Positions 27,162-58,080 of a stretch of 64,000 nt of DNA are shown one piece after another. A program made the position numbers and the translations under genes. Numbering within the stretch: the first letter of the stretch is position 1; every line of letters begins with the position of its first letter. Below the pieces are notes generated by a model. That model ran no database searches. It saw only the letters and a program-made list of their open reading frames with translations, and had not been told where the DNA came from. This stretch comes from a virus, in the IMG/VR virus record IMGVR_UViG_3300020411_001722, positions 1 to 64,000 of that record, one strand, 5' to 3'.

Positions 27162-28379
27162 TTAAACTAATGCTAGAGGGGGAATACCTTTGTTGAAGAT
27201 AGCATCAACTACATTCTGTATTCTACTATGTGTTTTCTTTCCATATGACTTATGTACTGGAATAGTGACATAACCACATGGTTTCTTATACATTGCGAAG
27301 CAACCTGCTGCTACTTCACCATTACGAATTCTTTGTGAATCCTCCTTATGTAGACGTATAACACGACCTACAGTTTGTGCCATCTCAACAACATTTAAGT
27401 TGCGTAATAATATAGAATGAGTTAAACCAGATACATTAATTCCTTCAGATAATATACTGTAATGGAAGATAACAAACTTCTTATTGTTATCTGAACCCCA
27501 CTCATTTAATGTTCTAAAGAACTCAGTACGATTAACTTTAGTTGCATTAACATAAGCACCAAACTTACTGGTAATATGTAATACATCATACCCCTGCTTA
27601 TATAATTCTTTGAGTAGCATTGTCTTAGTAATAATATTACCAAGAATACGAGATGATGGTACTGATACCAATATCTTTGATGCTTGACTCTCAGGTAACG
27701 AATCAACTACATCTTCAATAGTCTTTGCATGATGCACGTGTGCATTTTCACGACTAAAATGTGTATTTGTTTCGTATGTAATTACTTTAGGTGGTATGAT
27801 TGCACCAGACTTGATTAACTCTTGTGCTGGTACTGAAATTAGTATGTCACCATATACATCACTGTTGTTCATACCTCTGTAACTTGAGTTAGAGGTCTTA
27901 GGTGTAGCAGTGAAGAAATATGCTCTAGTAGCAACAACTTGTGCTGTTGGATAAAAGAACTGTTTTGATGTGCTATTATGTGCCTCATCAAAATATATGG
28001 AATCAATATGTATACCTGACTCAACAATCTTATGAAGTGAGTGGTATGTTGTAAAGATTATACGATTATAATCTCTATTTGTATAGTGCCAATCATTGAT
28101 TGCGTCACTATTTGTTGTGTTAATAAATCTTGTTCTGCCTGAATGACAATGAATGACTTTGGCATCAATGTGTGCATCAAAGTCTTCACATAACTGCTGT
28201 GCTAGTAATATTCTAGGTGCAACAACCACAATGGATTGTCTATTAGAAGCACATAGTTGTTGTGCATGTTTAATCATAACAAAAGTCTTACCACCACCTG
28301 TAGGGATGATAACCTGACCTTTATTAGATACAGTCATTGCCTCCAGTGCCCTATTTTGATGTGGACGTAGAGTAATCAC
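27162..28379 (-). CDS. SF2 DNA helicase / ATPase
   Basis: The 405-aa product has an SF2 core. Walker A is IIPTGGGKT at residues 24-32, DEAH is at 131-134, FFTATP is motif III, and QTVGRVIRLHK near residue 330 is motif VI. It resembles UvsW-like and restriction-type DEAD/DEAH helicases that remodel forks or recombination structures. The start is GTG at 28379, with no clear Shine-Dalgarno sequence; a three-codon ORF (ATG TTT TAA) ends just before it. The structured RNA at 28403-28550 is immediately upstream and may be its leader. Confidence 0.85.
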   Translation of the reverse strand: MITLRPHQNRALEAMTVSNKGQVIIPTGGGKTFVMIKHAQQLCASNRQSIVVVAPRILLAQQLCEDFDAHIDAKVIHCHSGRTRFINTTNSDAINDWHYTNRDYNRIIFTTYHSLHKIVESGIHIDSIYFDEAHNSTSKQFFYPTAQVVATRAYFFTATPKTSNSSYRGMNNSDVYGDILISVPAQELIKSGAIIPPKVITYETNTHFSRENAHVHHAKTIEDVVDSLPESQASKILVSVPSSRILGNIITKTMLLKELYKQGYDVLHITSKFGAYVNATKVNRTEFFRTLNEWGSDNNKKFVIFHYSILSEGINVSGLTHSILLRNLNVVEMAQTVGRVIRLHKEDSQRIRNGEVAAGCFAMYKKPCGYVTIPVHKSYGKKTHSRIQNVVDAIFNKGIPPLALV

Positions 28380-28402
28380 TTAAAACATGAAATAAAGAAC
28401 GG

Positions 28403-28550
28403 GTTGAGGGAACGGGGCATTGACCTAGGTTTCACCTAGATGCCCAAATTTACCTACTGGGAATCGCTTACACCTGAACCCCTACTACTCATATCTTAGT
28501 AGGATAACCCCACAAATGAGTTTCGGGCAGTAGAACCGTTATCCCTCAAC
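28403..28550 (-). ncRNA. Undescribed structured RNA element or leader (148 nt)
   Basis: The ends pair: on the minus RNA GTTGAGGGA with TCCCTCAAC, then a TA bulge, then ACGG with CCGT. Inside are a hairpin GGGCAT-CTAGGT-GAA-ACCTAG-(GTCA)-ATGCCC, a hairpin CCTACTA-(9 nt)-TAGTAGG, a helix CTACTG/CAGTAG, and a possible pseudoknot of CTCAT with ATGAG in the second hairpin's loop. GGGCA (28441-28445) can pair either with 28415-28420 or with TGCCC at 28525-28529, so two folds exclude each other. A TATAAT ends 7 nt before the 5' end. No long ORF covers the segment. I do not recognise a known riboswitch, tRNA or ribozyme class. It could be a leader of the helicase gene or an independent RNA. Confidence 0.6.
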
Positions 28551-28556
28551 AAATAT

Positions 28557-28584
28557 ATTATAGACCAAACATGACCTGTTCCAA
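28557..28584 (-). promoter_or_regulatory. Sigma70-like promoter of the structured RNA
   Basis: Minus strand: TTGGAA (28579-28584), 16 nt, TATAAT (28557-28562). It overlaps the end of the methyltransferase gene. A start 7 nt downstream falls at 28550, the first paired base of the RNA element. Confidence 0.55.
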
Positions 28585-29508
28585 CAGTGAGTGTGCTGGT
28601 TCCTCATCTGGCACACGCTGTTGTATCAACTCACCATATCCCTCGTGCAGTTCACAACCAATATAATCTCTACCCAACTCACGTGCCACCATAGCAGTGG
28701 TACCTGATCCCATGAATGGATCTAGTACAATATCCCCTTCCTCGCTTCCTGCCTTGATACAGGGTTCAATCAGATCAGGTGGATAACATGCGAAGTGTGC
28801 ACCTTTATATGGTTTATTGGTCACTGACCAGACAGAGCGTTTATTCTTTGTTGGATATGATTTCGTAAGACCTGAATGTGGTTGTAGTCCTGATCCTTCG
28901 TTGTGATACTTTCCTTTTGTTCTGTCTCTGGTTCCCCAGTCTTTTGCTGGTTCTTTGATTGCTTCATTGTTATAGTAATATTTTCTATTCTTACTCAATA
29001 AGAAGATATATTCATGTGACTTAGTACATCTATCTCTTACTGACTCTGGCATAGGATTTGGTTTATGCCATATAATATCTTGCCTTAAATACCATCCATC
29101 TGCTCTTAATGCAAATGCTAACATCCAAGGTATACCAATTAAATCTTTTTCTTTGAGTCCTTCGAGTCTGTTTCCTCTACGAGGACACACATCTGGTAGG
29201 TCTTGCTTAGTAGTTGATACTGTTTGTTTTGCCAGTCCTTGTCCTCTGCCTGGTCTGTAATTATAGTAAGAATCGCCAATATTAACCCAAAGAGTTCCAT
29301 CATCTGTGAGCACATTTTTCACCTCCCTGAATACCTTCACCAGTTCATCAATATATTCCTCTGGTGTTTGCTCTTGACCTATTTGTTCACCTTCTCCACC
29401 ATAATCACGTAATCCATAATAAGGTGGTGATGTAACACACATACGTGCTTTCTCATCAAATTGTGATAATGTCTCTCGACAATCACCAAATAATACTGTA
29501 TTTCGCAT
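28558..29508 (-). CDS. Orphan DNA methyltransferase (beta class)
   Basis: The 316-aa product has motif IV TSPPYYGL near residue 27 and the SAM-binding motif DPFMGSGTT at 263. This catalytic-before-SAM order defines beta-class amino-methyltransferases. TSPPY is more typical of N4-cytosine enzymes, but N6-adenine specificity is possible. A variable region between residues about 70 and 230 would hold the target recognition part. No restriction endonuclease is nearby, so it probably protects phage DNA from host enzymes or marks it. The start overlaps the upstream stop as TAATG. Confidence 0.9.
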   Translation of the reverse strand: MRNTVLFGDCRETLSQFDEKARMCVTSPPYYGLRDYGGEGEQIGQEQTPEEYIDELVKVFREVKNVLTDDGTLWVNIGDSYYNYRPGRGQGLAKQTVSTTKQDLPDVCPRRGNRLEGLKEKDLIGIPWMLAFALRADGWYLRQDIIWHKPNPMPESVRDRCTKSHEYIFLLSKNRKYYYNNEAIKEPAKDWGTRDRTKGKYHNEGSGLQPHSGLTKSYPTKNKRSVWSVTNKPYKGAHFACYPPDLIEPCIKAGSEEGDIVLDPFMGSGTTAMVARELGRDYIGCELHEGYGELIQQRVPDEEPAHSLLEQVMFGL

Positions 29509-55608: not shown

Positions 55609-58080
55609 TTAAGTGAGCATTCCTACTGGAGTGTGATTTTCATTCATCAAACCAAATTTAGGTATCATGAATTCTGCTGCTGCTTGTTGCTTCTTAGGTA
55701 AACCTATAAGTTGAGGTTTACCACCTCCACCTCCACCTACTGCTGGTTGATCTATTGGTTTTAACTCTGATACAGAGACGTTTGCTTGTGCTGCTGCATT
55801 CTCTAATCTCTCATCTTGTGCTTTTTGTGATTGATTAATTCTCTCACCAACACCTGTATTACTTGATGGTGGATTAAAGTTCATATAATCAGCACCATGA
55901 TCCTTACCTTTAATTAGATTAATAATCGTATCAGCACGACGACCAACTTGACCATACCACGCACTATCTTTAAGTTCTTCACCTGCTTTATTATAGTCAC
56001 CTTCTGCAAATGCTTTCCTGAATGCTGGAAATCCATCTGCCCACGCTGGTCCCATATTAAATGTAAGATCAATTAATGCTGCTTTCTGTGCTTCTGTTGC
56101 CTTCTTCCATCCTTTAATCCTTTCTGCTGCTTGCTTATGATGGGTAAAGTCAGCATCAAATAATTTATCTGCTTCCTGCTTAGTTATAGTATCAGGAATA
56201 GACTCATTATTCTCAATTAGATGTCCGTAACCTATAGTGGGGAATCCTAAACTATCCTGATATTTCTGAAGACGTAACCCCTCATGGAGTTTAATCATCT
56301 CCTTAGCAAAACCAAACTGTCCTCCTTCTTCAAAACCAGGAAGTTTATACCCTGCTAATGCTGCTTCCTTCATCCTCTTCCCAGTTAGAGAAGGATCCTT
56401 TCTAGTTGCAGGTGTATCAAATGGTATAACAAATCCACCTTTACTCATCTGAGCAACATATTCCAAACCATGACCAATAAAATCTGTACCTCTACCATCT
56501 AGAGATACAGCATAACCTTCTTGAGGTCCATTAATCCATCCTCCTGCTGCTAATGCTGCTACAGCAGTTGCAGTCATAAGTTTTCCACCCTTTGCTTTAC
56601 CATCATTATCACCATCCTTCACTGTAGCAGTATCACTACCTGATGTTTCCTCACCTCTTATTGCTGCCATAACCTTCTTGACGGCATCAAATACTTTAAA
56701 GAAAGGCATAAGATAAATCTCCAATCCTGTCTGAACTAAATTCTTGAGTTTTGCTATGTATGGTGATAAGAAGTCTTTAATAGTGGTGAATATCTCTCCA
56801 AAGAATCCAAAGGTTGCATCCAATTGTTTCTTGAAGAATCCAATTACATTACCAAATATCTTCTTGATCTGATCAAACATCCCAAGAATGGGTTTCATAA
56901 TAAAATCAAAACCCTTCTTCAGTGTAGCACCAATTCCACCACCTTTAGCTTTCTTACTACCCTCCTCAGCATCCTTTGCAACTTTTGCTTTAATATCCTG
57001 CGCAGCACTCTCTATAAATGCTTTAGATTCATCTGTACCACCTTCTGGACCATAGTGTTTAAAGTCTTCATCTCTTGGGGTAACAGTAGAAAGTATATCA
57101 TCTTCAGTAAATGAATCTGAGTCTTGTTCCTCATCACCACGATTCATCATCTTATTAATACCCCATCCAGCAAGGGCAACACCACCCATTATCAATGCTG
57201 CTTTAGGGTTCTTTATTGCAAATTTACCAACCTTAAACAACCCTTTGGCTGCTATCTTACCTAAGTTGAGTATAAACTTACCTAAACCTTTCAGTAAACT
57301 CATTACAGGTTTAAGTACCGCTTTTGGTTTAGTGATTAATGCAAACAACCCTGCCTTTATTAACGCAGGACCAGCAAATATACCACCCAAAACCATAAAG
57401 AACTTGAACAATCCAAATATCCCCTTAAAGGACTTAGGATTCTCCATAAAATCACTAATACCACCCAGAGCAACCCCTGTTAACCAACTAGCAATCTTAT
57501 ATACAAATTTACCAATTTTAGCGATGGCTTCAACCATCTTCTGAACTTTTTCTGGGTTCTTCGATATCCAATCAAGTGCTGCATATCCTACTAATTTGAA
57601 GAAGAATGAACCTAACTTCTGTAGGAATCCCATTATTCCTTGACCGACCTTCCCTGCTACAAAACCAGCAACATATCCAGTTCTAGCAGCAAGAAGGTTA
57701 GCACCCTCCATCTTTGCTTCTGCTGCATCATCTGCTGCTCTACCTAATGCCTTCTCCTTATCTCTCTTATCATCTCTTTCTCTCTGTGCTTGATCACTAA
57801 GTGCTGCATCCTGTGCATTGGCAATCTTATCTTGTTGTTGTATCTGAAGATTAACAGATTCCTTGAAAGAACTGTTCATACTCTCCATCATAAGTGCCAT
57901 GCTATTCATTGTGGCACCAAGACGATTCAATGCAAATGACATCTGCTTGAATCCAGAGTTTGCACTAGTAACGATCTGTTTAGTGTCAGACTCACCAAGC
58001 TTACGACTTTCGATTCCCTTAAAGGAAACCATCTTATAAAGTTTTGCTTTTGATTCTTTATTTGGTGCAGTTTTCGCCAT
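55609..58080 (-). CDS. Tape-measure-like protein with C-terminal T4-type lysozyme domain (823 aa)
   Basis: The ATG at 58080 is preferred over the TTG at 58086 because it overlaps the preceding stop (TAATG). Residues about 30-60 are Gln/Ser-rich coil. Residues 140-320 are hydrophobic helices (ALDWISKNPEKVQKMVEAIA), followed by a basic linker and helices. Residues about 590-728 are a GH24 lysozyme: IKLHEGLRLQKYQDSLGFP and TIGYGH carry the Glu, Asp and Thr triad of T4 lysozyme, and LTFNMGPAWADGFPAFRKAF and WYGQVGRRAD follow in order. The enzyme would cut cell-wall peptidoglycan during injection. The C-terminus is Pro/Gly-rich. Confidence 0.85.
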   Translation of the reverse strand: MAKTAPNKESKAKLYKMVSFKGIESRKLGESDTKQIVTSANSGFKQMSFALNRLGATMNSMALMMESMNSSFKESVNLQIQQQDKIANAQDAALSDQAQRERDDKRDKEKALGRAADDAAEAKMEGANLLAARTGYVAGFVAGKVGQGIMGFLQKLGSFFFKLVGYAALDWISKNPEKVQKMVEAIAKIGKFVYKIASWLTGVALGGISDFMENPKSFKGIFGLFKFFMVLGGIFAGPALIKAGLFALITKPKAVLKPVMSLLKGLGKFILNLGKIAAKGLFKVGKFAIKNPKAALIMGGVALAGWGINKMMNRGDEEQDSDSFTEDDILSTVTPRDEDFKHYGPEGGTDESKAFIESAAQDIKAKVAKDAEEGSKKAKGGGIGATLKKGFDFIMKPILGMFDQIKKIFGNVIGFFKKQLDATFGFFGEIFTTIKDFLSPYIAKLKNLVQTGLEIYLMPFFKVFDAVKKVMAAIRGEETSGSDTATVKDGDNDGKAKGGKLMTATAVAALAAGGWINGPQEGYAVSLDGRGTDFIGHGLEYVAQMSKGGFVIPFDTPATRKDPSLTGKRMKEAALAGYKLPGFEEGGQFGFAKEMIKLHEGLRLQKYQDSLGFPTIGYGHLIENNESIPDTITKQEADKLFDADFTHHKQAAERIKGWKKATEAQKAALIDLTFNMGPAWADGFPAFRKAFAEGDYNKAGEELKDSAWYGQVGRRADTIINLIKGKDHGADYMNFNPPSSNTGVGERINQSQKAQDERLENAAAQANVSVSELKPIDQPAVGGGGGGKPQLIGLPKKQQAAAEFMIPKFGLMNENHTPVGMLT
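55903..56319 (-). other. GH24 (T4-lysozyme-type) domain
   Basis: This 138-residue segment has the lysozyme order: HEGLRLQKYQD, then GFPTIGYGHL, ITKQEADKLFDADF, QKAALIDLTFNMG, and WYGQVGRRADTIINLI. T4 lysozyme itself has DEGLRLKIYKD, YTIGIGHL, ITKDEAEKLFNQDV and WYNQTPNRAKRVI in the same order. Confidence 0.9.

Follow-up and report, generated by a model that had tools for sequence, protein, structure and literature searches.

The window (the whole 64,000-nt stretch of viral DNA analysed here) carries a 148-nt intergenic element on the minus strand, running from 28550 to 28403 between the genes for a DNA methyltransferase and a DNA helicase. An ORF scan of the element found no open reading frame of 40 residues or more. 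It is the single copy of this RNA in the 79.7-kb virus record, and a covariance search of the window returned it as hit R1 (28390–28556; Infernal, 123.8 bits, E 2e-32). The 3′ end of the methyltransferase gene overlaps the −10 box of the RNA, and the two hexamers that an earlier note on this DNA had read as promoter boxes are both present. On the other side, the helicase gene starts with GTG, 24 nt past the end of the RNA and without a Shine-Dalgarno sequence. As that note had also described, a three-codon ORF, ATG TTT TAA (28377–28388), abuts this start (TAA-GTG), a junction at which re-initiation is possible.

Table 1 Features of the RNA locus (window coordinates)
Feature	Position	Strand	Remarks
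Upstream gene, DNA methyltransferase	28558..29508	-	PHROG 67, E 1.8e-79
Possible -35 box TTGGAA, 16-nt spacer	28579..28584	-	window sequence only
-10 box TATAAT	28557..28562	-	6 nt before +1 (28550)
Structured RNA, scaffold plus 49-nt insert	28403..28550	-	only copy in the window; homologues found
P1, 5′ strand	28542..28550	-	partner 28403-28411; own versus swapped arms
P1b, 5′ strand	28537..28539	-	partner 28412-28414; GUG/CAC, ACG/CGU and GCG/CGC versions
P2, 5′ strand	28528..28533	-	partner 28454-28459; 14 fully complementary versions
P3, 5′ strand CCC, mouth of variable slot	28525..28527	-	
Partner of P3, GGG	28480-28482	-	
Exchangeable slot plus insert	28480..28527	-	95 distinct inserts in 153 copies
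Insert module stem	28516-28521/28487-28492	-	in slot
Module M2 GTGGGGTTATCCTACTAAG in slot	28495..28513	-	19-mer identical in 22 viral contigs
Near-invariant unpaired core GUUCAGGUGUAAGCGAUUCC	28460..28479	-	few varying positions in fetched copies
Joining strand GUAAAUUU, P2 to P4	28446..28453	-	129/140 copies identical
P4	28415..28445	-	P4a 28440-28445/28415-28420; P4b 28435-28439/28425-28429
P4 cap G-UGAAA-C, T-loop-like by sequence	28435-28429	-	loop kept while P4b covaries
P1, 3′ strand	28403..28411	-	partner 28542-28550; own versus swapped arms
Downstream gene, DNA helicase, GTG start	27162..28379	-	PHROG 16, E 5.2e-65

Searches of Rfam 15 gave no match in the window at gathering thresholds, none at E up to 10 in the region 28300–28700, and none in 12 relative loci. 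ARAGORN found no tRNA or tmRNA gene in the whole window, and literature searches did not find the RNA described. Fetching of marine viral contigs yielded 170 further copies beyond that in the window, representing 153 distinct sequences, and these were used for comparative analysis of the fold. For the minus strand, folding energy was modestly lower than expected (z −2.70; 2 of 200 shuffles), and for the plus strand it was lower still (z −4.42), so energy alone fixes neither strand nor fold. Single-sequence folding was also misleading because the conserved fold of the window copy (−41.7 kcal/mol) differs from its minimum-energy fold (−50.5 kcal/mol).

An alignment (A1) was made of 31 copies with the shortest insert type. 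RNAalifold, run unprompted on A1, predicted 28 pairs, 14 of them with compensatory changes. When the named structure was imposed, 95.0% of cells were paired, and both sides had changed in 19 of the 31 scaffold pairs. The alignment contained 115 compensatory cells; shuffles gave 33.9 ± 5.6 (0 of 500), and slid controls gave 6–20. Such compensatory changes in relatives were what the earlier note had named beforehand as support for its fold, and its outer stem, which corresponds to P1 and P1b, covaries: own arms of P1 form 8.4 bp versus 5.8 bp for swapped arms (swapped maximum 6.1 in 300). Likewise, the long-range helix that it had drawn is P2, which is paired at all six positions in 151 of 153 copies and whose versions include CUACUG/CAGUAG, CCUAUG/CAUAGG, CUCUAG/CUAGAG, GCUAUG/CAUAGC and CCAUAG/CUAUGG. 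The larger of its two hairpins is P4, within which P4a is paired in all 153 distinct copies, with up to five pair types per position. Across the aligned copies the fold is thus proven by compensatory changes, and we regard it as virtually certain that the RNA is real and conserved.

Other proposed pairings fared differently. The second hairpin (28481–28503), which makes use of the AGUA-GG of the slot mouth, is possible in 5 of 153 copies. Bases 28516–28520 do pair with 28488–28492, but the helix is a plain stem nested within the variable insert rather than a pseudoknot. The segment GGGCA, for which two mutually exclusive partners had been suggested, forms 5 of 5 pairs with its true partner at 28415–28420 in 153 of 153 copies, whereas the second partner offers at most 3 of 5 pairs when the P4a arm is GGACU, GGUCU or GGCCU. 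The alternative helices are therefore not conserved, and there is no evidence for a switch.

Several parts of the RNA are unpaired yet nearly fixed in sequence, namely the core, the joining strand and the UGAAA loop capping P4, which stays constant while its closing helix varies (GG/CC, GAG/CUC, AAG/CUU). In the slot, GAA (28522–28524) faces AGUA (28483–28486). The UGAAA within its G-C closing pair and the GAA opposite AGUA are sequence signatures conserved among copies and resemble those of a T-loop and a loop-E (bulged-G) motif, respectively. Since copies were retrieved via core or P4 patterns, invariance of the core is partly a matter of ascertainment; one core-independent scan and two wildcard scans still revealed few variable core positions.

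To locate the 5′ end, upstream regions were compared among GTTG-type copies (those whose P1 starts GTTG or similar, the window copy included). In 57 of 70 distinct upstream regions, and in 24 of 31 after redundancy reduction, TAnnnT ended exactly 6 nt ahead of P1, while any other offset accounted for at most 19 of 70 (overlapping boxes). This fixed spacing identifies the first P1 base as +1, as the earlier note had placed it, and marks the RNA of GTTG-type copies as a predicted transcription unit of its own. Divergent copies with an altered P1 (GUCAGGGA/UCCCUGAC) retain TATTAT-ATAAAT ahead of it (e.g. TATTAT-ATAAAT-GTCAGGGA), and several copies lie directly behind an upstream terminator-like hairpin and T-run. 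Together, the Rfam nulls, the covariation and the −10 spacing strongly support two proposals: an undescribed structured RNA whose matched promoter is its own, and a free-standing RNA. In the window phage the RNA is very probably an independent transcript.

These data also bear on the idea that the element belongs to the upstream gene as a 3′ untranslated or processing element, a stability or termination structure cut from the mRNA of that gene. The upstream gene is co-oriented in 123 of 131 copies, and a same-strand upstream gene is also expected of a processed operon part. In addition, about 60 copies have no GTTG-type start, and many of these have no −10 box. Nevertheless, the exactly spaced promoter in most GTTG-type copies, sometimes right after the upstream gene's terminator-like hairpin, together with a complexity and invariance well above those of a terminator, makes such an origin hardly probable. 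Among the non-GTTG copies, some follow a conserved GGGGG.CG..TAAAGTGT and others, as in P-SSM2, follow further RNA modules, so these may be co-transcribed. A GGGGG(A/T)CGNNTAAAGTGTNNNNATAGTGTGAGGG-like conserved stretch was seen upstream of the scaffold at five loci without a −10 box (L017, L026, L029, L056 and L088).

The most unusual property of the RNA is the swappable slot at P3, which the earlier note overlooked because it is visible by comparison only. The CCC/GGG pairs of P3 lead into an insert whose length ranges from 14 to about 230 nt. Most inserts fall into three types: a short CCCCGAUUAAGUUUGGGGG-like hairpin, CCC-GAA ... AGUA-GGG, and CCCCAAACC ... GGUUGAAAGUGGUGGGGG. Inserts of the second type form 3.63 bp between their own closing arms versus 2.24 bp when arms are swapped (permutation maximum 2.95; 2000 permutations), and 41 unrelated inserts had a mean folding z of −1.6, 24 of them falling below −1.5. 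A resemblance to a group I intron or ribozyme, in the form of an S-like AAGATAT, was considered by eye and dropped because this motif belongs to the variable insert and is not conserved.

Several inserts are assembled from recurrent modules, which also turn up, nested, in further slots and in different RNAs. Modules M1, M2, M3 and M9 were seen in several slots, the slot categories being pattern-assigned and approximate. M1 (AUACAUCCAUUUNUGGUUAGGAG) occupies the P3 slot, a sub-slot within inserts of the third type, and GGC/GUAAGUCC loops belonging to other RNAs. M2 also occupies the P3 slot and the sub-slot, lies inside M9 and on stand-alone stems, and occurs on several different scaffolds. M3 occurs in at least four places, twice within one RNA (L057). 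Flanks of the modules vary between copies and mostly pair with each other.

Recurrence of this kind could reflect selfish palindromes, comparable with the repetitive or double hairpin elements of mitochondria, either as the whole element or as a load that the RNA carries, the inserts being mobile hairpins that landed in loops. Inverted-repeat ends, differing genomic neighbours and the repetition of modules at many places are all in keeping with this. Against it, one scaffold copy was present in 9 of 14 records and none in 5 of 14 (L032 has two), the promoter sits at a fixed spacing, the 20-nt unpaired core is near-invariant and covariation is strong, all of which points to selection for scaffold function; module flanks also pair with each other. 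As an account of the whole RNA, selfish hairpins are therefore unlikely, while it is possible that mobile hairpins explain the inserts alone.

Two further observations concern the modules. An internal loop, GGC-A / GUAAGU-CC, recurs at many loci (e.g. L014:2240–2295 and L124:2985–3025) with covarying flanks and hosts modules; in L148 and L153 its two strands occur in reverse order. In P-SSM2, clear module matches cluster in two unannotated intergenic stretches (55814–56117 and 56566–56933) around PSSM2_070 (PHROG 1987), one of which contains the scaffold.

The RNA is far more widespread than the earlier note suggested. A scan for the 20-base core turned up at least 119 viral contigs, and blastn matches included the Prochlorococcus phages P-SSM2 (cultured) and P-SSM5 as well as single-cell marine viruses, several of the latter that carry the RNA being classed with Kyanoviridae. 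Annotated records with a blastn match have no gene under the matching stretch. Many large ocean cyanobacterial viruses appear to encode a small folded RNA with a constant core and a swappable arm. None of 84,980 bacterial and archaeal genomes contained the core 20-mer (exact match, either strand) or a looser core-plus-joining-strand pattern; an origin in a bacterial host was rejected on this basis, and the core has no perfect 20-nt antisense target among these genomes.

Flanking genes vary widely among phages, but genes for methyltransferase, helicase, PHROG 1987, PHROG 818 and PHROG 767 are frequent within a few kb, and copies elsewhere are often near the methyltransferase, helicase or PHROG 1987 gene. 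This combination of shared nearby genes and differing neighbours indicates that the RNA moves within a variable region of P-SSM2-like genomes. A fixed genome position was rejected, since L004, L005 and L010 share the helicase yet have no RNA and other copies lie beside other genes.

The genomic context also speaks to a cis-acting, riboswitch-like leader, which the earlier note had favoured alongside a free-standing RNA and which would sense a ligand or protein and control the downstream gene, here the helicase. Proximity to a start codon without a Shine-Dalgarno sequence would suit such a role, as would a big invariant unpaired core resembling a ligand pocket, and the helicase lies downstream in other phages too. 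However, many of the downstream genes are unrelated, and although the downstream gene is co-oriented in 101 of 122 copies it is antisense in 21 of 122; no alternative helix is conserved; and a variable domain with extra 3′ modules does not resemble a conserved expression platform. A cis-acting leader is accordingly very unlikely, and the RNA quite likely acts in trans rather than in cis.

Among known systems, phi29 pRNA and T4 RNAs C and D are likewise small, stable, single-copy phage RNAs, and they are not known to share sequence or structure with the present RNA. GOLLD has been linked to phage. The glnA, manA, wcaG and PhotoRC-II RNAs of T4-like cyanophages are in Rfam and have been described as cis-regulatory (PMC2864571; PMC10665884). 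They too are structured RNAs of T4-like cyanophages and marine metagenomes, but none is matched by the present RNA, whose downstream gene is not constant. GOLLD and ROOL, both large orphan RNAs of bacteria, have structures made up of RNA-only complexes (PMC12286853). They resemble the present RNA in being free-standing, structured and variable in peripheral parts; they span hundreds of nucleotides, whereas the scaffold here is about 120 nt, with one defined slot, many alternative domains and no Rfam match. The repetitive elements of sponge mitochondria that form hairpins (PMC2800124), like double hairpin elements, are similar as hairpin modules repeated at many sites, but the present scaffold is single copy and linked to a promoter, its long-range helices covary, and its unpaired core is near-invariant. 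We place the RNA among the orphan phage structured RNAs.

On balance, we favour as probable a free-standing phage ncRNA that acts in trans and combines a constant core with an exchangeable domain. In GTTG-type copies, transcription would start at the first P1 base behind a sigma-70-type −10 box. P1/P1b close two arms, P2-P3 and P4, the near-invariant 20-nt core is unpaired, P4 is capped by UGAAA, and the P3 end is a slot for a folded domain that differs among copies, with several recurrent modules among the many alternatives. The RNA would then act in trans during infection. More tentatively, the constant core and P4 might bind one conserved partner (a host or phage protein, tRNA or the ribosome), with the slot domain adding a second, variable contact that is swapped between phages by recombination. 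Such exchange would fit infection machinery under shifting selection, for example from host variety or defence.

Heavily selected structured RNAs in a very abundant ocean virus group usually have important roles, and this one is absent from Rfam. In the slot, nature supplies a library in which dozens of folded RNA domains share a common frame, of use in RNA structural biology and design. Expression and function can be tested directly in the cultured pairs P-SSM2/Prochlorococcus NATL1A and S-SSM7/Synechococcus WH8109.

A second scaffold, GGGAAACAAAAC...GUUUUUGUUUCUC, starts just past a TATAAT-like box in L203 (5330–5415) and in the cultured phages S-SSM7 (L243:604–682) and P-TIM68 (L244:440–556). 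Its insert is M1 in L203, UACAUCAACGAUUCGCUC in S-SSM7 and another sequence in P-TIM68, and the UACAUCAACGAUUCGCUC module also occupies the P3 slot of the first scaffold. It is plausible, at somewhat under even chances, that the two are frames of a natural combinatorial RNA system, in which a few promoter-linked scaffolds accept shared plug-in domains that are nested at several levels and exchanged between phages, each phage having its own assembled RNA tool. If so, this would be RNA domain shuffling comparable with that of proteins, and a separate kind of system.

Many phages have a further domain 3′ of the scaffold that reads as an H-type pseudoknot (M8 pseudoknot stems were judged by eye), with CUAAUC/GAUUAG and variants crossed by GGURGUUUC/GAAACYACC. 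It was seen in L029, L059, L061, L094 and about 24 other distinct sequences, among which both stems vary, with CAACCC/GGGUUG and CUAGUC/GACUAG, and GGUAGUUUC/GAAACUACC and GGUGGUUUC/GAAACCACC, as variants.
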